Origin: an uncultured bacterium
Lineage (GTDB): Bacteria > Bacillota_I > Bacilli_A > Acholeplasmatales > Anaeroplasmataceae
DNA length: 37,322 nucleotides
Direction: 5' to 3'
NCBI GenBank assembly: GCA_949292525.1
Contig: CASEZJ010000006.1
Location: forward strand, 1-37,322
Shown here: one piece after another, positions 3,177 to 34,869 of the stretch
Numbering within the stretch: the first letter of the stretch is position 1
Layout of the letters: the number at the start of each line of letters is the position of its first letter
Translations under genes and position numbers: made by a program
The notes under the pieces: generated by a model
The model's input: only the letters and a program-made list of their open reading frames with translations
Database searches by the model: none
Told to the model about the DNA's origin: nothing

Positions 3177-3506
3177 CTAATTTAATTTATCATATTTAGT
3201 AGCAATACCCCTGCATTTATCTACCGGGTATTTGTTTGCTGTTTTTTGCATTTTATTTTTAACAATCTCAATTGGATCTAATTTTAATACCATTGCCATT
3301 TGTAAGCAATAGTTTAGAACATCTGCTAATTCTTCTTTTACTGATTCTAAATCATATTCATCATCTGACCATTGAAAACATTCTAACAATTCGGCGGCTT
3401 CAATAGAAATTGATTTAGCTAATTTATCTGGTTTGTGAAATTTATCCCAATCGCGTTCTTTATTAAATCTATCTATTTCCTTTATCAATTCATCTAATCT
3501 TTCCAT
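3177..3506 (-). CDS. MazG-like nucleotide pyrophosphohydrolase
   Basis: The 109-aa protein is an all-alpha NTP pyrophosphatase of the MazG / RS21-C6 (dCTPase-like) type, which hydrolyses nucleoside triphosphates to monophosphate and PPi with Mg2+. The metal motif is visible as E36-A-A-E39 and E59-L-A-D62, after the typical HKPDKLAKSISIEAAELLECF. I start at ATG 3506, which has GGAG seven bases upstream, not at the longer upstream in-frame start. Proteins of this type often follow DUF2075 helicase genes, and a fragment of such a gene lies immediately upstream here. Confidence 0.85.
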   Translation of the reverse strand: MERLDELIKEIDRFNKERDWDKFHKPDKLAKSISIEAAELLECFQWSDDEYDLESVKEELADVLNYCLQMAMVLKLDPIEIVKNKMQKTANKYPVDKCRGIATKYDKLN

Positions 3507-3508
3507 GT

Positions 3509-3646
3509 TTATCTCCTTACGCAAGCTAATCTTTTCTTAATGTATTCAGAAAGTTCTCTATCTTCACAATACACAAAACAACCTTTTTGTCCTCGTGATA
3601 ATAATACATATATTATATAAAATAAATTAGCTCTAACACCATAAAA
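3509..3646 (-). pseudogene. C-terminal remnant of a DUF2075 (Schlafen group 3-like) helicase
   Basis: An open frame without a start codon ends at TAA 3509-3511, three bases before the MazG-like ATG. Its product holds YVLLSRGQKGCFVYCEDREL then SEYIKKRL. This closely resembles the extreme C-terminus of DUF2075 proteins (consensus of the type RVLLTRGMKGCYVYCEDKAL). About 45 codons survive; everything upstream is replaced by the stop codon of the Dam-type methyltransferase gene at 3647. This is what a deletion or insertion through the helicase gene would leave, so it marks one edge of the defence island. Confidence 0.65.
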
Positions 3647-4963
3647 CTATAAAATTTCTTCTTTATCAATAGAGTACATCCACTCTACCCAAGCACGAAT
3701 AGTTGAGGCTCTTCTATTTACTGTTGATTCAGCCATCTTTGGATTTGCTTTTGCTATTTCGCTTTTTATAGCATCAACATTGACTCTTCTTTCCTTTTTA
3801 TAAGTAGTATATGGAATAGAAAACATTTCATTTTCCATTAGTTGATAATAAATGTCCTTCTTTACTTCTACTTCATTACCACGAATTGCATTAGCTCTAT
3901 CAGTAAATTTTTTGTTATGTGTCAAATATTTTAAATATAGTAAAGCGGATAAATAATATGCTACTTGTCTAATAGTAGTTACACCAATTAACTCACAAGC
4001 TCGTTGCTTATCAATTAAGATAGATTCATCAGACATAAGTGTTTTAATTATTTTATTCATATCATTTGCTTGAGGAAATGGTATACTATTTGGAATTCCC
4101 CAAAAAATTGCTTCTTTTCCAGTTTTTCTATCTCCGCCATTACAATTAATACTTCTCAATGTGGCAAATTGGTTGATATCATAGAAAATCTTGTAATGTG
4201 GATCTTGTTCAAATAGATTAAGTACCTTAGTTGTAGCGTTATTACTTACTATAACAAAAGCTCCCCTGTTGATTGCCCTATCACAAATTTCTTTTAATCT
4301 AATAAAATCTTCAAAAGTGAAACCTTTCATTTGATATTTAGTGAAGCCGTCATCATCTTCATAATCATAAGGTGGATCTATGTATATGATATCACCATCA
4401 CCGGCCTTATCAATTGCATATTCATATGAACCATTCATTATTTCAATTTGATTATCTTCAGAGGATAAATAATTATGAATTTCTGTAATGTTTTCTCTAT
4501 CACAAATAGTAGGATTTTTATACCTTCCAATTGGTGTATTAAATTGTCCTTTACTATTAACTCTATACAAACCATTGTAACATGTACGGTTCAAAAATAT
4601 CATTCTAGCTGCACGTTCTACATCAGTATGATTATCGGGCCAGCCTTCCTCTCTATCCCAAGAGCGAATTTCATAATAATAGTCATCTGGATCAGTCTTA
4701 TATGCAAATGCATGTTCATCTAATGCGTCAATCAATTCAAGATACTGGTCAGATTTTATGATCTGATATGCATTAATTAAATCTGAATTAAGGTCATTAA
4801 TAATAGCTTTTTTGGGTCTTTTAGCAAAGAAAACAGCTCCACCGCCTAAAAATGGTTCAATATAAGTGAATGACGGAGTATTAACAATTGAATCTTCAAT
4901 AAATTCATTTATTCTATTCAATATTTGGCGTTTCCCACCAGCCCATTTTACAAACGGTTTCAT
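3647..4963 (-). CDS. Dam-family DNA adenine N6-methyltransferase with C-terminal extension
   Basis: The 438-aa protein belongs to the D12 class (PF02086) of DNA adenine methyltransferases. The SAM-binding start FVKWAGGKRQ (4-13), the EPFLGGGAVFF motif (about 36-46) and the catalytic DPPY motif (about 196-199) are all present in Dam order. The methyltransferase domain ends near residue 295. A further ~140 residues carry helical, basic sequence (IGVTTIRQVAYYLSALLYLK; STVNRRASTIRAWVEWMY) not found in Dam itself, perhaps a specificity or contact domain. It is the last gene of a six-gene operon; AGGAG at the stop of the preceding gene serves as its ribosome binding site. It would provide the self-mark of the system. 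Confidence 0.9.
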   Translation of the reverse strand: MKPFVKWAGGKRQILNRINEFIEDSIVNTPSFTYIEPFLGGGAVFFAKRPKKAIINDLNSDLINAYQIIKSDQYLELIDALDEHAFAYKTDPDDYYYEIRSWDREEGWPDNHTDVERAARMIFLNRTCYNGLYRVNSKGQFNTPIGRYKNPTICDRENITEIHNYLSSEDNQIEIMNGSYEYAIDKAGDGDIIYIDPPYDYEDDDGFTKYQMKGFTFEDFIRLKEICDRAINRGAFVIVSNNATTKVLNLFEQDPHYKIFYDINQFATLRSINCNGGDRKTGKEAIFWGIPNSIPFPQANDMNKIIKTLMSDESILIDKQRACELIGVTTIRQVAYYLSALLYLKYLTHNKKFTDRANAIRGNEVEVKKDIYYQLMENEMFSIPYTTYKKERRVNVDAIKSEIAKANPKMAESTVNRRASTIRAWVEWMYSIDKEEIL

Positions 4964-4977
4964 AAAGATATCAACTC

Positions 4978-5709
4978 CTATGCCAATAATTCAAGCATTT
5001 TTTCGTATACCATTTGTTCCATATCCTCTTCTGATATAGAATCAAGTAATCTTACACTGCCAATAAAAGAAATAGCTTTTGCAAGTTCAGAATAAACATT
5101 AGACTCTTTCCCCTTTTCGTCAATGGCTCTCTTTTCACCCTTTAAAGCCCCTCTAACAATATGTTCTTCTGATGAATAATTACGCCATGTCAATTCACGG
5201 AATCTTAAAGGGTTTTCAATAACCCATTTTGTAAGATGATAGGGGTCAGCTGCCCTTTCATCATAAGATAATGAAACGCGGAAATAACAACGGGATAATA
5301 CACCAAACATTAGTCCTCGACGGACACCTTGTCCATGCATCCACATATTATTTATTGTTGATGTACCATTAATCGTCATCATATTTTTAACTATACCATA
5401 AAATTTCTCAAAATGCAGCCATAACCAAAAGCATTGATCAGTTAAAATATATCTTGGTAAATTCCTACAGCTTTCGTAAATGGAAATAGAATTTTGTAAA
5501 TCAATGCCTTTATCCTTTGAATTAGGATTATCAATAAGTATAAAATCATCTATTTCAAATTTCTTTTCAGTAAACATTGGTTGAGGGAATTCAGTATAAA
5601 TCCAATCATTAGTTAAATTATCTTGAATCTTCTTTGTGATAGATGCTAGATTCTTTTTTAAATGATTTAAAGCATCTTCATTTAGCATTTTAATGTGAAT
5701 CTTACTCAC
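4978..5709 (-). CDS. DUF6339-like protein of the defence operon, 243 aa
   Basis: The product resembles DUF6339 proteins: an N-terminal strand plus NEDALNHLKKNL, a central aromatic segment (LTDQCFWLWLHFEKFYGIV), then RRGLMFGVLSRCYFRVSLSYDER and LTKWVIENPLRFRELTWRN. No catalytic motif is evident and the function is unknown. I start at GTG 5707-5709, which overlaps the end of the upstream gene by 8 bases and has GGTGA five bases before it. The start gives the family-like opening SKIHIKMLNEDAL. Dam follows after 14 bases. Tight packing between the ATPase module and Dam suggests it works in the same complex. Confidence 0.6.
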   Translation of the reverse strand: MSKIHIKMLNEDALNHLKKNLASITKKIQDNLTNDWIYTEFPQPMFTEKKFEIDDFILIDNPNSKDKGIDLQNSISIYESCRNLPRYILTDQCFWLWLHFEKFYGIVKNMMTINGTSTINNMWMHGQGVRRGLMFGVLSRCYFRVSLSYDERAADPYHLTKWVIENPLRFRELTWRNYSSEEHIVRGALKGEKRAIDEKGKESNVYSELAKAISFIGSVRLLDSISEEDMEQMVYEKMLELLA

Positions 5710-6622
5710 TAAACTCACCATCCTTTGTTGCATTCTTTGTTTCATCCACAAGTTTCTTTAAAGAGATACCTAGAGGCTTTCCAAGCAGATTTTGTGCTAA
5801 TTTTACAGGAGATATTTTCTTGAATTCGTCAACTGTTAAATCAGTACCATAAATTTTCTTATAACCATTTACTATAGATCTAAACCACATAAATTTATTT
5901 CCTACATCATCAAGATCATATGATGAATCACTATTAAGATGATTTTTGCATAAGGACAACCCTTCAACTAATGCAGGTACAAGCAACATATTAAAGAAAA
6001 CTTCCATATACGTTGGAACTGTATATATTATCTTGTAATTTTTATATTCGACATCTGACATAGTAATTGTTATCTTTTTTCCTGTATCACATTCAACTAT
6101 ATATGATTCTCCAGCTTCCATGTCATGGCTTGTAACAATTGAGAAGATTGAGTGTGCCATATTATCTGCTTTTTCTTCATGAATAAAAGTTATATAGAAT
6201 CCATCATTTACAGCCAAAATATCATACTTTTCAATTTCAAATTCAATGTCAGCGTAATCCTCATCTACGTCAGCTGTCTTTAGAACAAATTTTCCTTTTG
6301 CTGTTGCAAACATTGAAAAATAAGTTTTTTCTAAGAAATCAGACTTAGATAATTTTATATCTTGTGGTTCTCTTGTTAGCTCAAATGTTTTTCTAAAAAC
6401 TGTATATGAACATTCAACCACGCAACAAATCTTTATTTTTCCTTCGTCAAATAAATCATTTATTAGCTGGCATTCTGTTTCGAACTTAGCATTTTTTAAA
6501 ATGTAATATCTTTCAGTTTCTTCTGGAGTAAAACTAAAGACAAAGTCAGCTTCGCCAAAATTTGAAATACTCTTATTATGATTTAATATAGGATACGGAA
6601 ATATCTTATCTTTAACTAGCAT
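5702..6622 (-). CDS. Unknown protein of the defence operon, 306 aa
   Basis: I do not recognise this family. The protein is acidic, mainly beta-rich in the first 200 residues (alternating short hydrophobic strands, e.g. KIKICCVVECSYTVF and KYDILAVNDGFYITFIHEE) and helical at the end. There is no signal peptide, membrane segment or obvious nuclease motif. I start at ATG 6622, two bases after the ATPase stop, with AAGGAAGG upstream; a longer TTG start at 6649 would overlap the ATPase. Its place between a GHKL ATPase and a DUF6339-like gene suggests a structural or adaptor subunit, which is inference. Confidence 0.75.
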   Translation of the reverse strand: MLVKDKIFPYPILNHNKSISNFGEADFVFSFTPEETERYYILKNAKFETECQLINDLFDEGKIKICCVVECSYTVFRKTFELTREPQDIKLSKSDFLEKTYFSMFATAKGKFVLKTADVDEDYADIEFEIEKYDILAVNDGFYITFIHEEKADNMAHSIFSIVTSHDMEAGESYIVECDTGKKITITMSDVEYKNYKIIYTVPTYMEVFFNMLLVPALVEGLSLCKNHLNSDSSYDLDDVGNKFMWFRSIVNGYKKIYGTDLTVDEFKKISPVKLAQNLLGKPLGISLKKLVDETKNATKDGEFSE

Positions 6623-6624
6623 AA

Positions 6625-8589
6625 TTACTTCGCCTTCCTTTCTATGCAAACTACTTTAACTGTTGCACCAAAGTACCCCTTTACATTTGTTGTAACTTCA
6701 AGAATCATTTTTTCATTTTGCATGATACTGAATGGACCATATTCATATGGATTTTCACATAAAATATCTAAGCCATTACATTTCATAGAAATAATGTCAA
6801 CTTTTTCAGTATTATTTGAATCATCTAGCATGCCAACATTTAAATAACACTCAGGGAATGTAATAGGTGATTTAAAAATTACCTTAATCTTTCCGTTAGC
6901 TTTATCAGTAGAAATGATATTATATTTAACCCCTGAAAGTTTATACCTTACCATTATAATATTGTCGCCAGATGTTCTTGCACCAGATTCTTTTCCTCCA
7001 TGCGGATCTTCACCTTGACCATTATTGTCACCAGTTGGATGTTCAACTTCGCCTGGATTGTCATCATCTACTTTACCAACATCTGGTTGTAAACCCTGTC
7101 CGTTTTCATCATCTTGATTTGCATTTTTAGTACTAATTTTAACCTCTTTTGGAGAAGTAACGGTTGTAGCTTCTACTTGACGGTCAGATCCTTCATTCTC
7201 TACATGGCTCTCGCCCAAGTCCTCGTCTGGCAAGAAATCGCCAGCACCATATGGATCTAATGGATTAGTATCTCCAAGTTGTAGGCATTCAATTACTTTT
7301 TCATTAATTTGAGTTTTTATAACTTTTAAAACCCCTTCTAATTCCTTCTTTAATGTAGGGTCGTCAACAATTCGTTTTGGCTCCCAATCAATATGTTGAG
7401 GATTTTCAATTGATCTAAGCATTTTTCCAAGTTTATCATCACTAATCATGCACATTGCTGACACTCTAAAACTGGCACCTAAAGATTCTTCTTTAATCTT
7501 CATTAACGGATGTCTAACCATTACGCACTTATGTGTAGCAAGTTCTTCTTCGTCCTTTCCATAAGGAAGAATATATAAAGCACATGTACCATAGTCAGTT
7601 TCAATGTCATATACTTTAACATTATCACCATCAGTTAATAATCTATATTGTGATATAATGTTGCTCTTATTACTAGGAGTAACAATATCACTATAAACTA
7701 TTTTTTCTACTGTATCTTTATTAATTGCGATATCATTAAATTCAATTTCTAATTGACCTCTAACTATTGCTGCCATAAAAGAATCTAAAATACTATTAAT
7801 TACTTCTCTTTCCCAATTTGCACTATCTCTAAATCCAATAATGTAAATATCAGTTCCATCTATTGTACTTCTTACAGTATGAGCAGGGTCTAAATCTAAA
7901 GTTTTGCTTATAGCACTGTTGAAATCATCGCTACTGAAAAATCCTTTACCTTGCGTATAATCTCTATTTAGATTTGTAACATCATCTGCAACATAACCAG
8001 AAATGAAATCGGCAACACCAACAGAACCGATATTCGTTCCTGGTGTCCTATCTATGTTCATATTAGTACGTGTAGAATAAAATACTGTTCTTATTTTTGA
8101 CATTAAGAATGCGACATTCTTACCCATACCTTTAGAACCACCAGCTACTTCACCTGTTTTTTCAGATACACCAGTACCTCTTGTTAATGCTAAAAAGTGA
8201 TTATTTGCTTTTTCATTTGATTCAACACCAACAAGACCTGTCGTATTAAAATCACTTACTCTTAAACATAATAATGATTTTTCATTTATAGCAGCTTCAA
8301 TCTTATCATATTCCTTGATGTAATCATTCTTGTAATTCCAAAACTCTTTACATCTTCTTAAAGCTATCTTTAAATCATTAATATTCGGAATATCTTTTGT
8401 TTTTAACTCAAATTGACTAAACACTACTCTAACTGGTTCTTCATCTGATACTTGAGCATCTATTGAATTTTGTAAAATTTCACGTGCAAAAGCTGAATAA
8501 GGTGCTTTCTTGAATGCTTCAGAATCACCTGTACTTATACCTTTTCTATCACCGTAATTAGCGGCTGGAAATCTCCATTTGTTATCCAT
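6625..8589 (-). CDS. GHKL ATPase (MORC/MutL-like) of a putative defence system
   Basis: The 654-aa protein has the ATP-binding motifs of the GHKL superfamily: N-box AREILQNSIDAQ (35-46), G1-like DFNTTGL (113-119), and a Gly-rich lid GGSKGMGKNVAFLMS (150-164) followed by RTVFYST. This set matches the bacterial MORC-like ATPases that were earlier linked to restriction-modification gene neighbourhoods. The conserved part runs to about 455. A long acidic, Gly/Asn-rich linker (about 455-545) leads to a beta-rich C-terminal domain (about 545-654). Such ATPases usually dimerise around DNA on ATP binding. Its Shine-Dalgarno AGGAGG is encoded by the last codons of the preceding gene, so the two are coupled. 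Confidence 0.85.
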   Translation of the reverse strand: MDNKWRFPAANYGDRKGISTGDSEAFKKAPYSAFAREILQNSIDAQVSDEEPVRVVFSQFELKTKDIPNINDLKIALRRCKEFWNYKNDYIKEYDKIEAAINEKSLLCLRVSDFNTTGLVGVESNEKANNHFLALTRGTGVSEKTGEVAGGSKGMGKNVAFLMSKIRTVFYSTRTNMNIDRTPGTNIGSVGVADFISGYVADDVTNLNRDYTQGKGFFSSDDFNSAISKTLDLDPAHTVRSTIDGTDIYIIGFRDSANWEREVINSILDSFMAAIVRGQLEIEFNDIAINKDTVEKIVYSDIVTPSNKSNIISQYRLLTDGDNVKVYDIETDYGTCALYILPYGKDEEELATHKCVMVRHPLMKIKEESLGASFRVSAMCMISDDKLGKMLRSIENPQHIDWEPKRIVDDPTLKKELEGVLKVIKTQINEKVIECLQLGDTNPLDPYGAGDFLPDEDLGESHVENEGSDRQVEATTVTSPKEVKISTKNANQDDENGQGLQPDVGKVDDDNPGEVEHPTGDNNGQGEDPHGGKESGARTSGDNIIMVRYKLSGVKYNIISTDKANGKIKVIFKSPITFPECYLNVGMLDDSNNTEKVDIISMKCNGLDILCENPYEYGPFSIMQNEKMILEVTTNVKGYFGATVKVVCIERKAK

Positions 8590-8592
8590 CTA

Positions 8593-11112
8593 TTATTTCC
8601 TCCTTATTATAAAATCTGTCGCATTATACATTGAATCAGTATATTCAATGATATATTCATCATTTAAAAAAGTTCTTATTATTCCAACTAATAAATATTT
8701 GTTCCAACCCACTCTAAGTCTTGGAAGATTGGAATAATCATTATATTTCCTACTATCAATTGGGCCAAAACTATTAATATAATAGTTTAAATCATTTTTA
8801 ATAGCATTTAATGTGATTTCATTTAGCATAAGTAGTTCTTTTTTTACTGCCGTATCCATATTAATCTGAACAAAATTGTTAGAGTTAGATATTAAAAAAT
8901 CCAAATAACTATCTACATATCTTAAATGCATTTTATTAAGATAAGATTGAAGAATTTGTGAATTGAATTTAGGCAATGTATTTATATAGTTTACTATCAA
9001 TGAATTGTGAGATAGGTCTATTGAGGCATCGCAAGATATATATGGTCTTCTGAAATAGAACTCGTTTTTTAATAAAGTTGACACTAGTGAAAAGAAAGCA
9101 AATTCTGTATCAAAAATTTTTACTTCTTCCATCAACTCTTCGTTCATAATCTTCATTCTAGCATATAGTTTTGAGCAAACTATAACCTTAGAATTCAAAG
9201 ATTTGAATAAGTAGTTTATATTATCAAACAATGCATTTTTGAATTCATTAGAAATATTGACTTTCGATAAAAGTATAAATGATTGCATATATTTTATCCA
9301 TATGACACCATTCATCTTTGACAAATAGTTCAAAAATACATAATCTTTAACTCCAGGAAATTCATTTTTAATAGTATTTAAATCTACTATTCCATCATAA
9401 GAATTAATTTCGGATATGATGAACTCAGCTGGAGATTTATATGAACTTCCTGTAATAATATAGTCTCTTTGATGAGTGAATTCTGAAGAAAGGTGATTAT
9501 CGATTAAACCTTTTAAATAATATCTATTTGTAACACCGTATTCATTAAGCTTGTCTTTAAAAGCTTCAAATAACGACTGATAATAAACTATGTCATTAGC
9601 CTCAGATAAATATTCATTTATTTCGGCTATAAGTTCTGGTGCCAACTCCGGTACATATTTTCTATTCACAACTGTACCTCTGTCAATATAGCAATAATCG
9701 TATCTAATTAAATCAGCGTTTAATGCATGCTTAGTTCCTATAGGGCAGTTAGTTTTGTATTTACTTTTAAAAGCATTATTAACTGCTTCAAAATCTTCAT
9801 CGTCGCCAAGTTTAAAACCATTAAGAAACATTTCATCAATAATATCAACAGCAATTTCAGCAGTATTTACACCTTTTTTCACATACATTAATTCATTTTG
9901 GGCTATTCTATAATTATTCTTTATAACAGACTTTTCAAAACTATCATAATCATTTATAGATTCAACACCAATAGCTTTTCCTATTTTTAACTCAACATCT
10001 GCTATTAATTCTGAAACGTTATAATTGTTCGGGTCATATAAAACATTATAAATTGAATCAAAATGAATAGGAAAATCAAATTCATCACACATAAAAAATA
10101 ATTTGTCAACCACATATTCATCTTTAATGTAATCTATTAATTGTTCTCTGGTAAGATAGTTCTTATCCAATCCTACCATAACATTAAATAGAAACATTGA
10201 TTCTTGCTTAAAACAGTTGGCTTTTCCTTTAATCTTTTCAATATTTTTTGCAACTATTTGTCTTATTCTCTCTTTTGTCACTCCATATTCGTTAGCTACT
10301 GCTGCAAGAGTCATTTTTTCATTGCAAATACCACATCTTTTAAAAACTATTTCTTTTGTCTTGTCATCTTTAAATTGGGAATCAAAAATATCATTAATTC
10401 TTATACATATTTCATGGAAATAGTTAGTGTTTCTGTGAAAATAAATATTAGCTAATATTTTCTCAATGTCATGAGAAAATAAGACTAAAATTATCGTATT
10501 TGAGAATATACTCAAATCACTAACTATTTTTACCCCTTTTTGACATAGGATTGATTTAAGTTTATTAGAGAGCACATAATCATTTATTTCAACATTAATT
10601 GCTTTTTCATCCTTGTACAGCAAATAATCAATTTGATCAATATAACTATTTTTATTGGTTATTATATCGAAACAAATCATAAAGACATAATCATCTTGAA
10701 ACTCTAATTCGTTACTTATAAGAGAGTAAACAAGTGATAACAAATAATCTAAATCATTATTTGATAAGTTTAAATTATTAAACAATTCATTTTCTATGTA
10801 ATCTTCGCCTTTAATTTTTAAAGAATAATAAATATGTTCTATCCTTTTTATTCTATTAAACTCATATTTTTGTGTTTCAGATAAACTAATGACTTGATTA
10901 CTTATTTCGTAATTTTGAAACAAGTAATCATATAATTTATGATAATCAATAATTTCTCCATAATAATAATTTAAATAGCTTAGAACTGACTCAAATTTTG
11001 AGTTCCTATTTTGATGAAGCAAATCTAACAAAAGATATTTAACAAAGCGGTCATCATATTTATATTTTTCTAAAGTCTTATTAAACTTTTTAACAAATAT
11101 TGAACATATCAT
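8593..11112 (-). CDS. Large multi-HTH protein with RNA polymerase-like DNA-binding modules, 839 aa
   Basis: No family name comes to mind for the whole protein. Residues about 177-205 (LSNKLKSILCQKGVKIVSDL) read like the helix-hairpin-helix of the RNA polymerase alpha C-terminal domain. Residues about 258-296 (MTLAAVANEYGVTKERIRQI) read like sigma-70 region 4, including the classic ERIRQI recognition helix. The remaining ~540 residues look like several winged-helix repeats (for example around 400-480, 500-560 and 580-640), each a helix bundle ending in a beta-wing-like IxYxRGTV or DYIITGSSY segment. I see no nuclease motif. It is likely a DNA-binding or sensing subunit. It overlaps the upstream 80-aa gene by ATGA. 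Confidence 0.7.
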   Translation of the reverse strand: MICSIFVKKFNKTLEKYKYDDRFVKYLLLDLLHQNRNSKFESVLSYLNYYYGEIIDYHKLYDYLFQNYEISNQVISLSETQKYEFNRIKRIEHIYYSLKIKGEDYIENELFNNLNLSNNDLDYLLSLVYSLISNELEFQDDYVFMICFDIITNKNSYIDQIDYLLYKDEKAINVEINDYVLSNKLKSILCQKGVKIVSDLSIFSNTIILVLFSHDIEKILANIYFHRNTNYFHEICIRINDIFDSQFKDDKTKEIVFKRCGICNEKMTLAAVANEYGVTKERIRQIVAKNIEKIKGKANCFKQESMFLFNVMVGLDKNYLTREQLIDYIKDEYVVDKLFFMCDEFDFPIHFDSIYNVLYDPNNYNVSELIADVELKIGKAIGVESINDYDSFEKSVIKNNYRIAQNELMYVKKGVNTAEIAVDIIDEMFLNGFKLGDDEDFEAVNNAFKSKYKTNCPIGTKHALNADLIRYDYCYIDRGTVVNRKYVPELAPELIAEINEYLSEANDIVYYQSLFEAFKDKLNEYGVTNRYYLKGLIDNHLSSEFTHQRDYIITGSSYKSPAEFIISEINSYDGIVDLNTIKNEFPGVKDYVFLNYLSKMNGVIWIKYMQSFILLSKVNISNEFKNALFDNINYLFKSLNSKVIVCSKLYARMKIMNEELMEEVKIFDTEFAFFSLVSTLLKNEFYFRRPYISCDASIDLSHNSLIVNYINTLPKFNSQILQSYLNKMHLRYVDSYLDFLISNSNNFVQINMDTAVKKELLMLNEITLNAIKNDLNYYINSFGPIDSRKYNDYSNLPRLRVGWNKYLLVGIIRTFLNDEYIIEYTDSMYNATDFIIRRK

Positions 11113-11351
11113 AATATGAACCTCTTTTTATCCTTATTGTTTGCACGAAGTAACTCTTTTTTTGCATTTTCACTAGCCTCAGCAATTGCAGCAAATATCT
11201 TTTCAATATCATCATTAGTGTATTCATAAAATGATGTATTAGTTAGATTGGTAAGTTGACTTAATAAAACTAAAATTTTTGAAACTCTATTCTCAGATAT
11301 TCTTTTAAAATTTTCTCTTTTGTTTCCTTTTTTTGAACTTTGATTATCCAT
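11109..11351 (-). CDS. Small conserved-looking helical protein at the head of the operon, 80 aa
   Basis: The product is strongly basic at both ends and helical. The core KRISENRVSKILVLLSQLTN followed by a short Asn/Thr-rich turn, then YTNDDIEKIFAAIAEA, resembles small proteins I associate with plasmid and restriction loci, but I cannot give a family name. It is first in the operon and overlaps the 839-aa gene by four bases (ATGA). AAGGA at 11363-11367 is the only upstream ribosome binding site and is somewhat distant (11 bases). A role as regulator or small subunit is conceivable; there is no HTH signature to prove it. Confidence 0.7.
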   Translation of the reverse strand: MDNQSSKKGNKRENFKRISENRVSKILVLLSQLTNLTNTSFYEYTNDDIEKIFAAIAEASENAKKELLRANNKDKKRFIL

Positions 11352-11703: not shown

Positions 11704-12189
11704 TTAACCAGTAAAAGAATTAGGTGTTGTTTTAGAAGTTATATCCTGTTCTTGTCTTAATTGTTCTGCTTCAGCTCTTAGTTTATTAGCTACAACCAAA
11801 TATTTATTCTCACAACTTTTTAACTCGCTTTCTATTCTTTTAAGTTCATCTTCTAAACCTATTTTGGTTCTTACCGTGATATCTAAATTTTCCAATTTAA
11901 CTATAATCTCTTGTTTGCGATTGCTTAATTTAGAAGTTATTTCAGCATATTCACATTCTAATTTATCAGCTTTTAATAAAAGGCCATAATATTTGTCCTT
12001 AGATGAATCATATTCTAATTCTTTTTTAATATATTTAGTATTAAAAAATTCATAGTGACCACATTTAGTACAAATAAGACTAGTCACTTGTTCACTACAT
12101 CCACCATCTGGAAAAACTTGAACTGGAAAATTAACACCTTTTAATTCATGTGAACCGCACATGGTACATTTAATATTTGAACGTTTCAT
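11704..12189 (-). CDS. Zinc-ribbon protein with C-terminal coiled coil, 161 aa
   Basis: The first 50 residues form a zinc ribbon with two CxxC knuckles (C8-T-M-C11 and C40-T-K-C43), the second inside LICTKCGHYEFF. A charged coiled coil follows from about 75 to 150 (heptad-like L/I spacing with many E and K), ending in a polar tail. I know no named family. Zinc ribbons of this kind often bind nucleic acid or serve as protein docking sites. The start ATG at 12189 is preceded by AAGGAG (12201-12206). The gene forms its own transcription unit with an operator-like promoter and a strong terminator. Confidence 0.75.
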   Translation of the reverse strand: MKRSNIKCTMCGSHELKGVNFPVQVFPDGGCSEQVTSLICTKCGHYEFFNTKYIKKELEYDSSKDKYYGLLLKADKLECEYAEITSKLSNRKQEIIVKLENLDITVRTKIGLEDELKRIESELKSCENKYLVVANKLRAEAEQLRQEQDITSKTTPNSFTG

Positions 12190-12488: not shown

Positions 12489-15400
12489 TTAATTCTCATT
12501 CATTATATATTCAGCTTGCTTAATAACATCATCTACCGCTTGTTTTTGATATTCAGGTGGATAATTATATTTTTTTAGGCATTCTTTAATTTTTATTCTC
12601 ATTCTCGCTCTTGTTGATTCTTTATGTGCCCAATCAGTTGATGCATACTCTTCAACAACTGACTTTAGTTCTCTAGCAATTAGTTTAAGTGTCTCATCAT
12701 TTAATAATTCTTTTGCAGATTTATCTCTAATTAAGGCATCATAAAATGCTCTTTCTCTACCGAAAACTCCTAAATCTTTAGCTGTTTTTTCATCTTTTAC
12801 CATTTCACTAGCAAAACTAACTAAATCAACAATTGTTTGTTCTGGAGCAAAAACAGCATCTCTGTCATTATATTTCTCTAAAATTTTTCTTAATCTTTTG
12901 CTATATTCTTGTGATTTAAAATAGTTATTTTTTCTAGATTCTGCTATTGCTCTTTCAAGTAATTTCTTAACAATTTGAACAAAAACATGAGGGGGATTTT
13001 TCTTTCTTAACTCTTCAATACTTTTCTCACTCAATAACTCAATAACATTAATCGAGTCATCCTTAGTTTGTGTTAATACTTTTACTTCATCACCTTTAAT
13101 AGCATCAGCTAATAGATTAGAAACATATTCATTCATTTCTTTTATAGAAACAGTTCCGGTTTTTGCTTTTAGTTTTAAAATAAAACTTCTAATAGCTAAG
13201 TAATAATAAACATCATTCTTCTCTTCTTTAGTTAAAATACCACCACAAACAACAAAAGCTTGTTTAATTGATAAAGATAAATCACTCATAAAAGCATCTT
13301 CTATTTTTACATCTTTTAGAACAAATTCTGCGCCAACTTGAATGGCTTGGAATCTGTCATGGTCATTTGAACTGTAAAATTTACATTTATCTATTTTATA
13401 AAACCATTCATTAAGAATACTTAATTTTTCTTTTAAAATATTATAAATTTCTTTCTTTACATCTTGAACATTTTCTTGTCTATCTCTATCAGTATATTCT
13501 GTCAAGGCTTCATTTAATGCTTTATTTAGCCCAATATAATCAACAATTAAACCGTAATACTTACCAGGATAAACTCTATTAACACGAGCTATTGCTTGCA
13601 TTAAATTATAAGATTTAAGTCTCTTAATAAAGTACATTACATCTAAATCAGGAACATCAAAACCAGTTAGCCACATATCAACAACAATAGCAATTTTGTA
13701 CTTAGATGTATCCTTTTTAAATTCTTCACCTAATTCTTTTCTGTAAGCAGAATCTTTAAACAAATTACGCATTTCTTCCGTATCTTTATTAGATTCAGTA
13801 ACAACTAAAATAATTTGCTCTTTCATATCAGGAGCAATTTCGTTAACTATTTTTTTATATAGTTTCAATGCAGCATATCTTGTTTGGCAAACTATCATAG
13901 CTTTGCCATTTAAAAAGCCTTTTCTTTCAGAATAATGAGCCATAATATCTTTAGCAAATAAATCAATCATGTCATCATCTTCTAAAATAACTTTAATTTT
14001 GCTCATTTCAAGTTTTGATTTTTCTATTGCTTGTTTGTCTGCTCGTTCATTAATTTCTAAATCATTATAGTAATCATCGATTTGATTTAAGACTGCTTCA
14101 TTTGTCCAAACTTTAGCAAGTCTAGATTCATAATAAAGTTTTACAGTCGAACCATCAATAACTGATTGTGTCATATCATAAACATCGATGATATCACCAA
14201 AAATATCGGTTGTTTGCTTATCTTTAGTAGAAACTGGTGTACCCGTAAAACCAATAAATGTTGCATTAGGTAAAGCTTCTCTTATATATTTTTCAATACC
14301 ATATTTAAATACTGCTTCTAATTCATCAGTTTCCTTATTTTTTTCATAACGAACAGTCTCATAAATGCCATAATGCCCTCTGTGAGCCTCATCAGTCATA
14401 ACAATAATATTTGAACGTTCATTTTTAGGTAAATCATGCTTATCAAATTTTCCAACAGTAGTAAAAATAATACCACCTTGTTTAATAGGCTTAAGTTTTT
14501 TAACTAAATCTTCCCTTGAAGTTGCTATTTGAGGTTCACATTTTAAATAATTTCGTGCACTAAAAAAAGTTTTATACAGTTGATCATCTAAATCAATTCT
14601 ATCTGTTAGAACAACAATAGTAGGCACGTTTAATTCCTTATTAATCAGTAATCTGTGAGCAAGCATTACCATTGAAAAAGATTTGCCACTTCCCTGAGTG
14701 TGCCAAATAATACCTGCCTTACCATCACCACTAGGTTTTATACTTTTTAAAATTGACTGAACTGCTTTTTTGACCCCAAAATATTGATGATATTGTGATA
14801 TTATTTTTATAGGCTTATTGTTTTTATCTTGAATAAAGAAAAGATTATGTTCTATTATATCTAAAAGTCTATTTTTCTCAAAAACACCATTTATAAAAGT
14901 ATTTAACTTAAAAGCATAGTTGTCATCATATCCTTTTTCACCTTCTACACTTTTCCATTCATTATACCTGTCGAATTTAGATGTTAATGTCCCTATTCTA
15001 GTACTTACTCCGTTAGAAATTACTAGGAGTGCAGAATAATTGAACAAAGTTGGTATATCATATCGATAACCATTAGATTCACTGCTACCACCTAATTGAT
15101 TAAAAGCATCTTCTAATGTAGCTCCTGTGGCATCTTCTAATAAAGATTTAAGCTCCATCACTATTAGTGGTAAACCATTTATATATACAATTACATCAGG
15201 AATTCTAGTAGCTCTACCTTCATTAAACTTAACTTGATGAACCACTTGAAATGTATTGTTATTCACGTTATTAAAATCAATAAACTTAATGAGAGGGTTA
15301 ACTTGATATTTATTTGATTCAATTGTTACTCCCCCTACTAACATTTTATGAACTAAAAAATTTCTTTCAAATAGAGAAGGATTGTCAACTCTCATAAGCA

Positions 15401-15602
15401 AATTAATTGCTTCATTAAGTATATCTAAATCATTAAGTTTATTTATTTTAATTAAAGCATTTAAAAGAATTTCTTTATTAACAAATTCATCTAATTTTCT
15501 TTCACTTAGCCATGAATCATCAAAATCTAATAATTCAAAACCATTATTGTGTAAAAGCTCTAAAATACTATTTTCAATAGCAGCCTCATTAAACATAAGC
15601 AA
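12489..15602 (-). CDS. hsdR: Type I restriction enzyme, R (endonuclease/translocase) subunit
   Basis: The 1037-aa protein has the full HsdR order. An N-terminal PD-(D/E)xK nuclease shows RIPDVIVYINGLPLIVMELK (D136, E150, K152). Walker A is HTQGSGKS (about 301-308), the DEAH box is DEAHRGHYG (about 404), helicase motif VI is QAIARVNRVYPGK, and an all-helical C-terminus would contact HsdM/HsdS. It cuts unmethylated DNA after ATP-driven translocation. The start is uncertain: TTG 15602 or ATG 15596, neither with an adjacent Shine-Dalgarno; GAGGAG lies further upstream beyond a hairpin. Its partners hsdM and hsdS are 3-9 kb away, separated by an IS110 element and a recombinase. No key residue is missing, so the enzyme looks intact. 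Confidence 0.95.
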   Translation of the reverse strand: MLMFNEAAIENSILELLHNNGFELLDFDDSWLSERKLDEFVNKEILLNALIKINKLNDLDILNEAINLLMRVDNPSLFERNFLVHKMLVGGVTIESNKYQVNPLIKFIDFNNVNNNTFQVVHQVKFNEGRATRIPDVIVYINGLPLIVMELKSLLEDATGATLEDAFNQLGGSSESNGYRYDIPTLFNYSALLVISNGVSTRIGTLTSKFDRYNEWKSVEGEKGYDDNYAFKLNTFINGVFEKNRLLDIIEHNLFFIQDKNNKPIKIISQYHQYFGVKKAVQSILKSIKPSGDGKAGIIWHTQGSGKSFSMVMLAHRLLINKELNVPTIVVLTDRIDLDDQLYKTFFSARNYLKCEPQIATSREDLVKKLKPIKQGGIIFTTVGKFDKHDLPKNERSNIIVMTDEAHRGHYGIYETVRYEKNKETDELEAVFKYGIEKYIREALPNATFIGFTGTPVSTKDKQTTDIFGDIIDVYDMTQSVIDGSTVKLYYESRLAKVWTNEAVLNQIDDYYNDLEINERADKQAIEKSKLEMSKIKVILEDDDMIDLFAKDIMAHYSERKGFLNGKAMIVCQTRYAALKLYKKIVNEIAPDMKEQIILVVTESNKDTEEMRNLFKDSAYRKELGEEFKKDTSKYKIAIVVDMWLTGFDVPDLDVMYFIKRLKSYNLMQAIARVNRVYPGKYYGLIVDYIGLNKALNEALTEYTDRDRQENVQDVKKEIYNILKEKLSILNEWFYKIDKCKFYSSNDHDRFQAIQVGAEFVLKDVKIEDAFMSDLSLSIKQAFVVCGGILTKEEKNDVYYYLAIRSFILKLKAKTGTVSIKEMNEYVSNLLADAIKGDEVKVLTQTKDDSINVIELLSEKSIEELRKKNPPHVFVQIVKKLLERAIAESRKNNYFKSQEYSKRLRKILEKYNDRDAVFAPEQTIVDLVSFASEMVKDEKTAKDLGVFGRERAFYDALIRDKSAKELLNDETLKLIARELKSVVEEYASTDWAHKESTRARMRIKIKECLKKYNYPPEYQKQAVDDVIKQAEYIMNEN

Positions 15603-17225: not shown

Positions 17226-17399
17226 GTGCTTCCTATAAATAATTTTATATTTTTTTCATTTTTTTACTTGATTTATTTATAGTAGGCTTTCTTTTAATTC
17301 AATAAGTTATATCATCTATGTAAAGGCATCATAATATAATTGTATTCGACTAATTATAACATAAAATACTAGCTATTCTTACAAAATATTAAAATTAAG

Positions 17400-17413
17400 A
17401 TAGTTAACACTAT
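17400..17413 (+). repeat. hsdS recombination site A
   Basis: ATAGTTAACACTAT, in plus orientation. The sequence is two 5-bp inverted arms (ATAGT, ACTAT) around TAAC, the usual form of a tyrosine recombinase core site. It encodes the conserved Ile-Val-Asn-Thr-Ile of the hsdS central region and opens the silent second-half cassette. Confidence 0.8.
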
Positions 17414-18032
17414 AGGAAGTGTGGATGATTTAATTGAAAAATACATAAACATAGAATCAAAAATAATTAATGTCGGATTAACAAAAATTAATAATTTAAT
17501 GTCTAATTTGGAATTGCAAAATTTAACTAATATAGCCACATTTGAAAAAGGATACGAAGTGGGATCAAGTAATTATATTCATAATCCAAAAAAGAAAAAT
17601 GATTTGATTAAATATATACGTGTTGGAGATTTAGATTCTTCAAAAAATTATTTCATCAAAATAACTGATAAAATTAAAACATGTGAAGATAGTGATATTT
17701 TAATAGCTTTTGATGGCGCTCCAGGTAGATTAAACGTCGGTTTAAATGGTGCATATTCATCAGGAATTTTTAAAGTGAGAGGAGCTAATAAGGGATTAAT
17801 TTATTTTTCTTTGCTTAGTGAATTAAATCAAAAAATAATAAAAGATAATTCTCAAGGTACGACAATATTACATGCTTCTAAAGCTATACCTTTTTTAAAA
17901 TACCCTCAAGCTTCAAATGAAATAATTAATAGTTTCAATTATCTTTTTGATTTTTTGATCGAGCTAAAGAAAAAGAAGAATAAAATGCAAGAGATTAAAG
18001 AATTAATGCTTAATAAATATTTTACCAATTAA
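17400..18032 (+). pseudogene. Silent hsdS cassette: second half (central repeat, TRD2 and C-terminal region)
   Basis: The frame runs through site A as IVNTIGSVDDLIEKY, which is the conserved central region of HsdS, and continues with a second target recognition domain and the C-terminal conserved helix (KKNKMQEIKELMLNKYF). No promoter, ribosome binding site or natural start is present; the GTG at 17421 lies inside the conserved helix. It is therefore a storage cassette on the strand opposite to hsdS. Inversion between sites A and B would replace the TRD2 of the active gene with this one. Its end overlaps the end of the recombinase gene by 11 bases. Confidence 0.85.
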
Positions 18033-18822
18033 CTAACTCGTCGACTATTTGTTGTTGTTCCTCACTCGTCTTTCTTAAATATATTCTAGTTGTTTCAATA
18101 GATTCATGCCCCATTAAATCTGCTAATAACGCGATATCTTTGCATTTTTCTAAGAAGTTTTTAGCAAATCTATGGCGAAAAGAGTGAGGATATATAACGT
18201 TAAGATTCATTTTATATTTTTTAGCTAATGTTTTTAATTGATGAGCAATTCCTCTTGTCGATATTTGATTGCCGTCTTTATTTAGAAATAAATATCCTTC
18301 AGTTCTATTAATTGAATTATAAAATTCTATTGCTTTAATCCTTAATTTTTTAGGAATAAAAATACGTCTTATTTTCCCTGATTTAGTATATAAATCAATA
18401 TAACCACGAACAAGATGTTCATACTTAAACTGAATTAATTCAGATACTCTAGCACCAGTAGCACCTAAAAACCGTACTATGAAATACCATTCCAAATTTC
18501 TGTCTTTCTTTAATTTATTCTTTAAGAATTCATAATCAGCATCACTAATTACATTTTCTAAAAAAGTTTTTTGTTGTAATTTTATATATTTTAGTTTTAA
18601 TTTTTCTTTCTTTATAAATTCGAGATATTTATTAATACCTTGGATTCTTAAATTAACGGTTTTACCTTTGTATTTATCGACTAAGATAGCTTTAAAGGCC
18701 AATAAATTTTGCTTTGTTATTTCACTAAAGTTTTCATTAAACTGTTTAACTGCAATGACATAAGAATCAATTGTGTTTTTTGTTAAATTTTGATGTTGTA
18801 AATGTTCTTTAAACTTTTCCAT
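18022..18822 (-). CDS. Tyrosine recombinase for hsdS inversion
   Basis: The 266-aa protein has a SAM-like N-terminal DNA-binding domain (about 1-90) and a catalytic domain with the complete tyrosine recombinase set: R125 (GATGARVSEL), K150 or K147 (TKSGKIRRIFIP), H213-x-x-R216 (PHSFRHRFA), H239 (LMGHESIETT) and Y248. I start at ATG 18822, which has GGAGGT seven bases upstream. The gene lies inside the segment bounded by sites A and B, right after hsdS. Dedicated recombinases in this place invert hsdS cassettes in other phase-variable type I systems, so this is its likely job. Confidence 0.9.
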   Translation of the reverse strand: MEKFKEHLQHQNLTKNTIDSYVIAVKQFNENFSEITKQNLLAFKAILVDKYKGKTVNLRIQGINKYLEFIKKEKLKLKYIKLQQKTFLENVISDADYEFLKNKLKKDRNLEWYFIVRFLGATGARVSELIQFKYEHLVRGYIDLYTKSGKIRRIFIPKKLRIKAIEFYNSINRTEGYLFLNKDGNQISTRGIAHQLKTLAKKYKMNLNVIYPHSFRHRFAKNFLEKCKDIALLADLMGHESIETTRIYLRKTSEEQQQIVDELVNW

Positions 18823-18857
18823 TGTTAATACCTCCAAATATAGAAGGTATTAAAAAA

Positions 18858-19907
18858 CTAAAAATATTTATCTAATAGTAATTGCTTTGTTTGTTTAAGT
18901 GAGATTATTTTCCTACGATATAAGCTTAATTGATTAATATAATGCGAATAAATATAATCGTATCTTAATAGTTCATTTTTATTTAGCTTTGGGACTAGAA
19001 TCTTCATAAAAGTATCATTATTTATGCCTGCCATTGTTGTTCCTACCGAATTTAAGTCTCTTTGTTCTTTAAAACTTTTTGAACTAACAATGGCAGTCAA
19101 AAAACTAAGAGGCAATGAATTGTTGCTCTGTAGTCCAAAAAAGCCTGTTGAAAAAATATAGCCACTTAATAAATCTTCATCACGGTTAGTTACAATTATC
19201 ACTTTATTTGAATCTTTCATCTTAGCAAACCATACTGAATTCACCATGGGCTGCATATTAGCCCTAGATGGTCTTGTATTGTATGTCACAGTATTAGATT
19301 CAATGATATTATTAATACCTTCTACGGACGATGTGTCCAAATATTCTTTGGTATTATAATATTTTTTAATTCCTGATTTCACAATTTGAGGTTTATAGAA
19401 TTCAAAAGAAACTTTTGGATAATTTAACAAAGAAAGTTCAAGAATATTTAGAATTTTTGCTGCTTTTAGATTTGTATTCTCAATAAGATCGTCAATACTT
19501 CCTATAGTGTTAACTATGTGACTCTGAATTTCTAATGGGTGGAACATTACAGGCATATCTAAAAAGTGAGCTAATCTAAGTGATTTGACAGTAGAACCTG
19601 TCGCAACTCTAGTGAAATATTCTTTGTGACACTCCAAATAATAGTACAAATATTTTGTCATTAAACTTGAGCTATTTGAAGTTATGCAATAGCATCTTTG
19701 ATGTAAATCAAACTTACCTTCATAATAACGTGGTTGAAAATTTGTTCCTTCGCCAGGTATTATCACTGCCTTATCATCATAGAGATAATTATCGCTATAC
19801 TTTATTATTTCAGACCTGTCAAAAAAAGGGTATTTACCATTAATTTTACAATCTTGAGTATTATGTTTTCCGTTAGATATTTTAATAAAAGTTGCTAGTT
19901 TATCCAT
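18858..19907 (-). CDS. hsdS: Type I restriction-modification specificity subunit, active copy
   Basis: The 349-aa protein has the two-TRD layout of HsdS. TRD1 is about 1-150. The central conserved helix begins HIVNTIGSIDDLIEN at about 163. TRD2 is about 190-325, and the C-terminal conserved region ends LKQTKQLLLDKYF. Each TRD reads one half of a bipartite DNA target for HsdM and HsdR. The start ATG 19907 has GAGGTG about 10 bases upstream and follows the stop of a silent cassette by one base (TAA-T-ATG). Recombination site B lies within the central helix codons, so TRD1 and TRD2 can be exchanged separately. It is the only complete hsdS in the window. Confidence 0.93.
   Translation of the reverse strand: MDKLATFIKISNGKHNTQDCKINGKYPFFDRSEIIKYSDNYLYDDKAVIIPGEGTNFQPRYYEGKFDLHQRCYCITSNSSSLMTKYLYYYLECHKEYFTRVATGSTVKSLRLAHFLDMPVMFHPLEIQSHIVNTIGSIDDLIENTNLKAAKILNILELSLLNYPKVSFEFYKPQIVKSGIKKYYNTKEYLDTSSVEGINNIIESNTVTYNTRPSRANMQPMVNSVWFAKMKDSNKVIIVTNRDEDLLSGYIFSTGFFGLQSNNSLPLSFLTAIVSSKSFKEQRDLNSVGTTMAGINNDTFMKILVPKLNKNELLRYDYIYSHYINQLSLYRRKIISLKQTKQLLLDKYF
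19504..19517 (-). repeat. hsdS recombination site B
   Basis: ATAGTTAACACTAT on the minus strand, inside the active hsdS at the central helix. It is inverted relative to sites A and D and direct relative to C. The match to A extends a few bases further (to AGGAAGT), the longest agreement among the four. Confidence 0.8.
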
Positions 19908-19908
19908 A

Positions 19909-20430
19909 TTATAATTTACACCTCACTTGAATGTTAACTATGTGTTGTTGAATTTCTAAATCGTGAACTGTTACTTCCAAATTTCTTAAGTCAGTTTTCG
20001 TAAATTTTGGCATAGCACTACCACTTGCTAATGATGCAAGCTTATCTTGTCCATATTTAGATAAAAATAAATAATAAAGATAATTATTAGAGGTAAAAAG
20101 AGGATTTGCTCTAATTAAAACCGCATTAGGACCTAATGTCATTTTAATACTTAATTTTGGACATTTAAATACAGTGCCTATATTAGAACCAACATTTGAG
20201 ATAATAATATCTCCATTTTCTAAATTACTTTTTTTAAGGTAATTAAATGAATGTTCAGATATATATATTGCATTATCTTCAGAAAAATTATTGTTAAAAT
20301 CAGTTAAACGAATTAATCGAGCATAAGCAATATTTTTATCTTTTAAATATTTAACATTATCATTAAGTGATTTAAAACTTCCGTTAGCTACATAATCAGT
20401 TATAACATTTGTGATATTTTCTAGTTTCAT
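19909..20430 (-). pseudogene. Silent hsdS cassette: first half (TRD1), minus strand
   Basis: The product is a TRD1-type domain beginning MKLENITNVITDY and ending with the conserved LEIQQHIVN, after which site C throws the frame into a short tail and a stop at 19909. The possible starts (ATG 20430 or TTG 20442) have no Shine-Dalgarno. It lies between hsdM and hsdS in the same direction, so it might be transcribed and could even be translated as a half-subunit. Recombination between C and B (direct repeats) would fuse it to the TRD2 of the active gene. Confidence 0.75.
19932..19941 (-). repeat. hsdS recombination site C (shorter copy)
   Basis: ATAGTTAACA on the minus strand, preceded like B and D by CAC. 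It diverges after this into the leader (with GAGGTG) of the active hsdS. Only ten core bases are kept, so the crossover must lie at or before TAAC. Confidence 0.7.
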
Positions 20431-20435
20431 ACAAT

Positions 20436-20945
20436 ATGTCAAAAGAACTAAATTTTTTTATAAAATCTTCCGCAACAGGTTTAGATGCAAACATGAGAGC
20501 CCCTATTGTGGCTTACAATACAGGAATCAAATGTCTTAGAATTGGAGATGTATCTCAATCTAATAATTTTGATTTTTGGGGATATAGTGAAGTTAATAAC
20601 ACAGATTACGGTAAATTTCATATAGAAAAGAATGATATATTTATCGCAAGAACAGGAGCTTCAATAGGGTGCTCCTTTATTGCAACGAAGAATTATGACT
20701 CTGTATTTAATAATGGACTTATTAGACTTAGAGTAAATGAAAATGCCTTACCACGATACATTTACTACTTATTTAAAACAAATGATTTTATGTCATTTAT
20801 AACAGCCACTGGAATGAGTAGCGCAACTCAACCAAATATTAGAATAAGTGATCTGCTTAAATATAAAATAAATAGGTTACATTCTCTCGCTGAACAACAA
20901 CACATAGTTAACACTATTTTAATTCTTCCATTAATATCTCTTTAA
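20436..20945 (+). pseudogene. Silent hsdS cassette: first half (TRD1), plus strand
   Basis: The product is another TRD1-type domain (start MSKELNFFIKSS, middle NDIFIARTGASIGC) ending SLAEQQHIVNTI at site D, then running about ten codons into antisense hsdM sequence. There is no ribosome binding site before ATG 20436. It is arranged head to head with the minus-strand TRD1 cassette: the two starts overlap in the palindrome CATACAATATG (20428-20438). Inversion between D and B would join this TRD1 to the active TRD2. Confidence 0.8.
20904..20917 (+). repeat. hsdS recombination site D, overlapping the hsdM stop
   Basis: ATAGTTAACACTAT in plus orientation. On the minus strand its end supplies the hsdM stop codon TAG (20914-20916). 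It is inverted relative to B and C. Confidence 0.8.
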
Positions 20946-22692: not shown

Positions 22693-23064
22693 TGGTGGAC
22701 CTGAGGGGATTTGAACCCCTGTATATAAAACAATATTATTTGCTTTCTACGTATGTAGTTTATTTATAAATTTAAGTAAAGTTAATAAATAAACAAAAGT
22801 TCTTTACCGAGCTAGATTATATTCATAATAATTCTTCTAGCTTGAGAATTATTATATAACCTATTAAATGATTCGTATTAATTGTCATAGGTTACAATTA
22901 ATATATAGCTGCGTTATATTAGCAAGCTAATTGAACGCTCATATTATTGTTACGAGCAAATAAATGTGTGTTTGCGTTTATTCAAACCTCGATGCTTTTT
23001 ACTTGGCATTAACAAGATACGCTTACAAACTTTCTCATTTTATAGCGAATCCAAAAACAAGCCC
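22693..23064 (-). ncRNA. ssrA: Transfer-messenger RNA
   Basis: The 372-base RNA rescues stalled ribosomes together with SmpB, the neighbouring gene. The 3' end has the T-arm AGGGG-TTCAAAT-CCCCT and CAGGTCC-ACCA. The 5' end GGGCTTG pairs with CAGGTCC through seven pairs, two of them G-U, and is followed by the family-typical GGATTCG (TTTTTGGATTCG). CCA is encoded. The internal reading frame for the degradation tag is at 22919-22975. Confidence 0.93.
22919..22975 (-). other. tmRNA tag-peptide reading frame
   Basis: From GCA (22973-22975) to TAA (22919-22921) the frame encodes ANTHLFARNNNMSVQLAC. Usual tags end in Leu-Ala-Ala. This one ends Leu-Ala-Cys if the frame and resume codon are right; the other two frames close within a few codons. 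Confidence 0.6.
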
Positions 23065-34836: not shown

Positions 34837-34869
34837 TATAAATAGATTAAATTAAGGCAGGTGGTAAAG

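Follow-up and report, generated by a model that had tools for sequence, protein, structure and literature searches.

The paraMORC proteins were linked to restriction-modification (R-M) systems in 2008 by Iyer, Abhiman and Aravind, with an ExxxH motif as the signature of the paraMORC2 group (PMC2292703). Three genes, PDC-M33A, PDC-M33B and PDC-M33C, are catalogued by sequence in PADLOC as the phage defence candidate PDC-M33, and the literature that we consulted contains no published anti-phage test of it. In this study, we analysed a six-gene operon (SMALL, SIG, M33A, M33B, M33C, and Dam-DUF7226; positions 3647-11351, minus strand) of an uncultured bacterium of the family Anaeroplasmataceae. 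The window, that is, the whole stretch of DNA that was analysed, is one entire contig (CASEZJ010000006.1) of 37,322 nt from an AT-rich draft genome of 1.24 Mb. An earlier note on the window had put the operon forward as an undescribed defence system. This was correct only in part, since the core corresponds to PDC-M33 and the ATPase to the paraMORC2 proteins known since 2008, while only three of the six proteins match PDC-M33A/B/C. Judged from its sequence, the locus is a conserved nuclease-less variant of PDC-M33. What is new here is that sister loci encode a Dam-type methyltransferase (MTase) together with a predicted restriction endonuclease (REase) ending in DUF7226, and that in the clade of the window the REase is gone and DUF7226 is found on Dam.

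The operon shares with PDC-M33 the genes A, B, and C in identical order, but PDC-M33 as catalogued is a three-gene core, to which the window adds SMALL, SIG, and the Dam-DUF7226 fusion. The paraMORC2 neighbourhoods described earlier resemble it in the GHKL motifs, the ExxxH motif, and the adjoining DNA methylases; however, they mostly contain superfamily 2 (SF2) helicases and endonucleases (PMC2292703), and the operon has neither. MZA (MzaABCDE) and the Z1-type candidates (PMC9523054) also combine a GHKL ATPase with a sigma-like protein. Membership in this group was rejected because the operon lacks Z1 (MzaC), AIPR (MzaE), and the DUF4420 nuclease, and SIG matches MzaA over the helix-turn-helix (HTH) alone (aa 250-295, 31.4 bits; cut-off, 800). 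Three related loci (L024, L122, and L123) carry Z1 or a Z1-sized protein, a GHKL protein, and two proteins in the positions of M33B and M33C, and L024 also carries a DUF4420 nuclease. Alignment of these counterparts, with three sequences each, gave a weak probability of 89% for M33C and a doubtful one of 55% for M33B, which suggests that a GHKL-B-C trio may be common to M33 and MZA-like systems. Type II R-M systems with a D12 MTase and a DUF6996-DUF6997-DUF7226 REase have the MTase family and DUF7226 in common with the operon, whereas in the window the body of the REase is absent and DUF7226 is located on the MTase. VcSduA, a paraMORC3 Shedu protein, has a GHKL ATPase of the paraMORC radiation, and its action against phages depends on ATP hydrolysis. 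It differs in being one polypeptide that carries its own PD-(D/E)XK nuclease and in having no MTase (PMC12137116). In a PADLOC scan, no signature helicase, PglZ, or Mad proteins of BREX, DISARM, and MADS were found in the operon.

Results

The six genes of the operon are intact and co-directional. When the junctions were computed with the conserved ATG starts supported by alignments, the distances from SMALL through SIG, M33A, M33B, and M33C to Dam were -4, +3, +2, +13, and +14 nt, which bears out the claim of the earlier note that the genes form one tightly packed unit. All six genes were under purifying selection, with ratios of nonsynonymous to synonymous substitution rates (dN/dS) of 0.05-0.13 in comparisons with the relatives L025 and L026, where dS was near or above 1. 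These values indicate that all six genes are maintained, that of the fused methylase among them. In GTDB species genomes, 347 relatives of M33A were detected by a scan, and the 80 best matches were retained.

M33A (6625..8589, minus strand; 654 aa), M33B (5702..6622, minus strand; 306 aa, starting at a conserved ATG), and M33C (4978..5688, minus strand; 236 aa) matched PADLOC PDC-M33A (E=3.8e-127), PDC-M33B (E=1.9e-45), and PDC-M33C (E=6.6e-38), respectively, over nearly their full lengths, as three neighbouring genes in the PADLOC order. A Pfam search gave no family for M33A, and its profile, built from only seven sequences, found no match in the PDB. The GHKL motifs of M33A are intact (RE37xxQN41S, D113xN115xxG118, and G151SxGxGK157), and the ATP-binding motifs are kept across the 84 aligned sequences of the family. 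E395 and H399, which form an ExxxH motif C-terminal to the GHKL domain, are invariant in the same 84 sequences. By these motifs M33A is assigned to the paraMORC2 group, in line with the MORC/MutL-like GHKL ATPase that had been noted before. M33C was likewise confirmed as a DUF6339 protein (Pfam, E=8.7e-34).

The AlphaFold model of M33B (predicted local distance difference test score [pLDDT], 88; predicted template modelling score [pTM], 0.52) has a beta sandwich in its N-terminal half and a helical C-terminal half, and that of M33C (pLDDT, 94; pTM, 0.91) is all helical. The best structural matches were immunoglobulin/fibronectin type III-type beta domains for M33B (Z 6.7, root-mean-square deviation [rmsd] 3.3 over 106 residues) and a match with Z 5.8 and rmsd 3.5 over 81 residues for M33C; these Foldseek and VIA-align matches fall below the level for claiming a fold. 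Matches of M33C to designed helical repeat proteins covered ca. 45 residues and were taken as chance. No nuclease fold was found among the Foldseek and VIA-align matches of the two models, sequence-profile searches of the PDB with M33B and M33C gave nothing convincing as a nuclease, and the conserved residues of the core families (74-84 members) include no PD-(D/E)XK, HNH, or similar set of acidic and basic residues. A nuclease in M33B or M33C is thus not supported by conservation, PDB profiles, Foldseek, or VIA-align, although its absence is unproven. Profile scans, Pfam and PADLOC among them, detected no Z1, SF2 helicase, or nuclease family in the six operon proteins, as the earlier note had stated.

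The last gene of the operon (3647..4963, minus strand) encodes a 438-aa protein. Its N-terminal part (aa 1-286) is a Dam-type N6-adenine MTase (MethyltransfD12, E=6.6e-57; TIGR00571 dam, 1.5e-70), as had been recognised before, and its C-terminus (ca. aa 291-432; 3668..4093, minus strand) matches Pfam DUF7226 (E=2.6e-11). In nine related loci, the gene after Dam encodes a protein of 428-442 aa that corresponds to a type II REase. The representative tested, that of L064, matched PADLOC REase_II (2.8e-97) and has the Pfam architecture DUF6996-DUF6997-DUF7226; the other REases of the sister loci match the L064-type profile end to end. Residues 291-432 of the window Dam align to positions 277-424 of the REase (hhalign probability, 99.5%; hmmsearch, E=6e-18), which indicates that this domain is homologous to the C-terminal domain of the REase. 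Eight fusion loci (the window, L025-L030, and L062), all of which lack DUF6996 and DUF6997, form a single clade with a support of 100 in the unrooted M33A tree. A ninth, L120 (G091:C1), lies in a 0.67-Mb genome, where the frames are intact when TGA is read as Trp (genetic code 4); its SIG is shortened, and SMALL, A, B, C, and the Dam-DUF7226 fusion are all present. A second Dam-like gene, which looks broken, was also seen in L120 (16703-17457). In L063, DUF7226 is encoded by a separate gene next to Dam.

These arrangements suggest that the body of the REase was lost and that its C-terminal DUF7226 was kept on the methylase. Because the tree is unrooted, this direction is given by parsimony and not by proof. 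A PADLOC scan of the flanks of the fusion loci and the other REase-less loci found only scattered, unshared defence genes and no common nuclease. L025 carries a distinct R-M system and L028 a type IIG enzyme, and Gabija-like and AbiE-like genes were seen at other loci. No cognate REase for Dam was matched among the operon proteins and none was common to the relatives, although a distant or unlinked partner is possible.

The link of the core to R-M genes, which had been suggested previously, was supported by the positions of D12 and C5 MTases. Fifty-two of them were found within 1.5 kb of the core (191 kb searched), three at 1.5-3 kb (153 kb searched), and none beyond 3 kb (450 kb searched), with the far flanks serving as the internal control. 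This amounts to 0.27 MTases per kb in the innermost 1.5 kb, against none at distances above 3 kb. An MTase was present in 30 of the 38 loci that have 3 kb on both sides. The MTase beside the core is of the Dam-type D12, the C5, or the type I HsdM kind, the last with HsdS, and its type runs in blocks along the ATPase tree. These observations show that the predicted MTase beside the core is an exchangeable part. On a plasmid of Ligilactobacillus salivarius (L127:4609-10569), hsdS and hsdM are followed by a SMALL-sized gene and A-B-C, and no hsdR is annotated in the part of the plasmid that was examined; the core here seemingly has a type I methylase as its partner where a restriction subunit would be expected. 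On the Lactococcus plasmid pS127, the core lies beside two D12-like methylases, an AlwI-type restriction enzyme, and AbiG.

SIG (8593..11112, minus strand) is an 839-aa predicted DNA-binding protein with a sigma-70 region 4-like HTH at aa 253-295 (10228..10356, minus strand; Pfam Sigma70_r4, E=8.6e-6) and a long conserved C-terminal half. Sigma-70 region 4 was found in 24 of 27 relatives of SIG, and seven of the 27 additionally have modules of the RNA polymerase alpha subunit C-terminal domain (alpha-CTD), consistent with the RNA polymerase-like DNA-binding modules reported in the earlier note. The TxERxRQ motif of the HTH is nearly invariant in 30 relatives, and the dN/dS of SIG was 0.11-0.13. 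SIG is not a full sigma factor. Since the shortened SIG proteins of L028 and L120 lack the sigma-4 part, this HTH is not essential. SIG is missing from L030 and L062, where a 250-aa protein with no Pfam family is encoded upstream. SMALL (11109..11351, minus strand), the first gene of the operon, encodes a conserved 80-aa protein with the invariant residues F15, R17, R22, N35, and Y42 and a dN/dS of 0.087 (against L025).

The A, B, and C genes occur together in ca. 90 loci (91 A, 86 B, and 82 C hits), of which 57 have the SMALL family and 36 have SIG. Pairwise divergences were strongly correlated between A and B (r=0.96), A and SIG (0.93), A and C (0.89), and A and SMALL (0.82), and none of 500 permutations matched the correlations of the core genes; that between A and Dam was looser (0.61). 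These patterns show that the A-B-C core is inherited as a block, usually with SMALL and partly with SIG. The expectation that the genes recur together thus held for a block found in divergent genomes and at unrelated places, but not for a fixed set of six: A, B, and C, usually with SMALL, form the constant part, and the MTase and SIG are exchangeable. An M33A-type ATPase was present in 23 of 392 evenly drawn genomes of the phylum and in none of seven genus mates of the window genome. Relatives were found on 27 plasmids, including those of Lactococcus and Ligilactobacillus, and on six viral contigs.

The defence-type surroundings claimed for the operon were supported, whereas the supposed broken helicase gene beside it proved to be an intact hsdR (12489-15602), whose full-length 1037-aa frame covers the whole type I REase profile and has a full-length homologue at 61% identity. 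The type I system was rejected as part of the operon unit, as its association with the fusion clade is not conserved. Two adjacent genes were also rejected as operon members: a zinc-ribbon-like gene (11704-12189) and a MazG-like gene (3177-3524) are not conserved next to the core, and the one MazG match lies beside a Z1 system. At 17388-20945, there are hsdS half-genes (17421-18032 and 20436-20945 on the plus strand, 18858-19907 and 19909-20442 on the minus strand), a tyrosine integrase gene among them (18022-18837), and shared inverted repeats with exact arms of 17 nt and 19 nt (19504-19520, 19932-19950, and 20895-20917). The arrangement resembles the known invertons that give phase-variable type I specificity. 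A transfer-messenger RNA (tmRNA) gene (22693-23064), the only hit of an Rfam scan, lies immediately past the type I genes. Since tmRNA genes are frequent integration sites, the region of ca. 3.6-22.4 kb may have entered the genome as an island at this gene. Promoter and terminator scans scored no better than shuffled sequence. An 820-aa open frame at 34861-37320 runs off the contig; it is coiled-coil-like and rich in Lys and Asn, and matched no Pfam family.

Discussion

We propose, at about an even chance, that the operon is an R-M-like system for discriminating self from non-self, in which Dam would mark self and the paraMORC2 complex would interfere with other DNA. Dam would methylate host sites, to which its recognition loop, DUF7226, or both would direct it. 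SIG, with its sigma-4 part (and alpha-CTD in relatives), and SMALL would aid the DNA binding of the core, and SIG, SMALL, and DUF7226 could be DNA-reading or docking parts. When unmethylated DNA enters the cell, the GHKL dimer, partnered by M33B and M33C, would close on it in an ATP-dependent manner, and the complex would clamp, loop, or compact this DNA in the way of MORC proteins and so block its replication or transcription; MORC2 clamps and compacts DNA in vitro (PMC12216690). Alternatively, the complex might hand the DNA to a nuclease encoded elsewhere, in a MutL-like manner. On methylated host DNA it would stay inactive. The stricter version of this proposal, nuclease-free immunity in which the paraMORC2 complex would recognise unmethylated phage DNA and silence it by ATP-driven clamping or compaction, the REase having been discarded save for DUF7226, appears rather doubtful.

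Several points weigh against the R-M-like proposal. At least nine related loci retain the REase, and for this reason the core may serve as an accessory to restriction by nucleases, namely as a MutL-like activator or matchmaker that has lost its cognate REase and now activates an unlinked nuclease, or whose locus only modifies DNA. This explanation is on the unlikely side but deserves serious consideration, given that REase_II is kept beside Dam in the sister loci, that other loci have a second REase_II or NgoFVII-like, GIY-YIG, Mrr-like, or Vsr nucleases nearby, and that MutL activates separate nucleases (PMC2292703). However, the REase-less fusion is stable through its whole clade with the six genes under purifying selection, the flanks of the fusion loci share no nuclease, and REase-less MTases of other types pair with the core too. 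The lack of a nuclease is itself deduced from profile searches and, for M33B and M33C, fold searches, which can miss divergent nucleases. A nuclease may be hidden in M33B, M33C, SIG, or SMALL, which would make the operon a conventional multi-subunit restriction system. Such systems, e.g. BsuMI and LlaI, are known, and we counted in favour of this explanation that multi-subunit restriction dependent on nucleoside triphosphates occurs beside type II-like MTases in Firmicutes and that characterised relatives are lacking for M33B, M33C, and the greater part of SIG. We nevertheless consider it quite unlikely, as no nuclease-like residue set is conserved in the core families and, in the models, M33B looks like a beta sandwich with helices and M33C appears all helical.

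The defence role is deduced from gene content, homology, selection, and association, and the best-80 sample is skewed to near relatives of the window. In genus g6 (L014-L017 and L019), moreover, a bare A-B-C core without MTase, SMALL, and SIG occupies a fixed chromosomal site adjoining cinA/udk/priA-like genes, which means that the core can be kept without an MTase. Together with the sigma region 4 and alpha-CTD modules of the SIG relatives, this site would fit a role outside defence, in epigenetic regulation or repair, with methylation guiding the MutL/MORC-like protein and the sigma-like factor to host genes. That explanation seems quite improbable in view of the patchy, accessory distribution, which extends to plasmids and a few viral contigs, the type I, II, and III R-M systems and AbiG among the neighbours, and the exchange of MTases.

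The related loci offer a natural comparison, as one ATPase core occurs with an REase in the sister loci, and a stable clade has this core with no more of the enzyme than its C-terminal domain on the methylase. MORC-like restriction without cutting is therefore directly testable, and related cores on plasmids of Lactococcus lactis, such as pS127, provide cultivable material. Nuclease-free silencing, if it takes place, would resemble the action of eukaryotic MORC proteins on transposons, and a MORC-like ATPase that restricts without cutting would tie bacterial immunity to eukaryotic MORC silencing.

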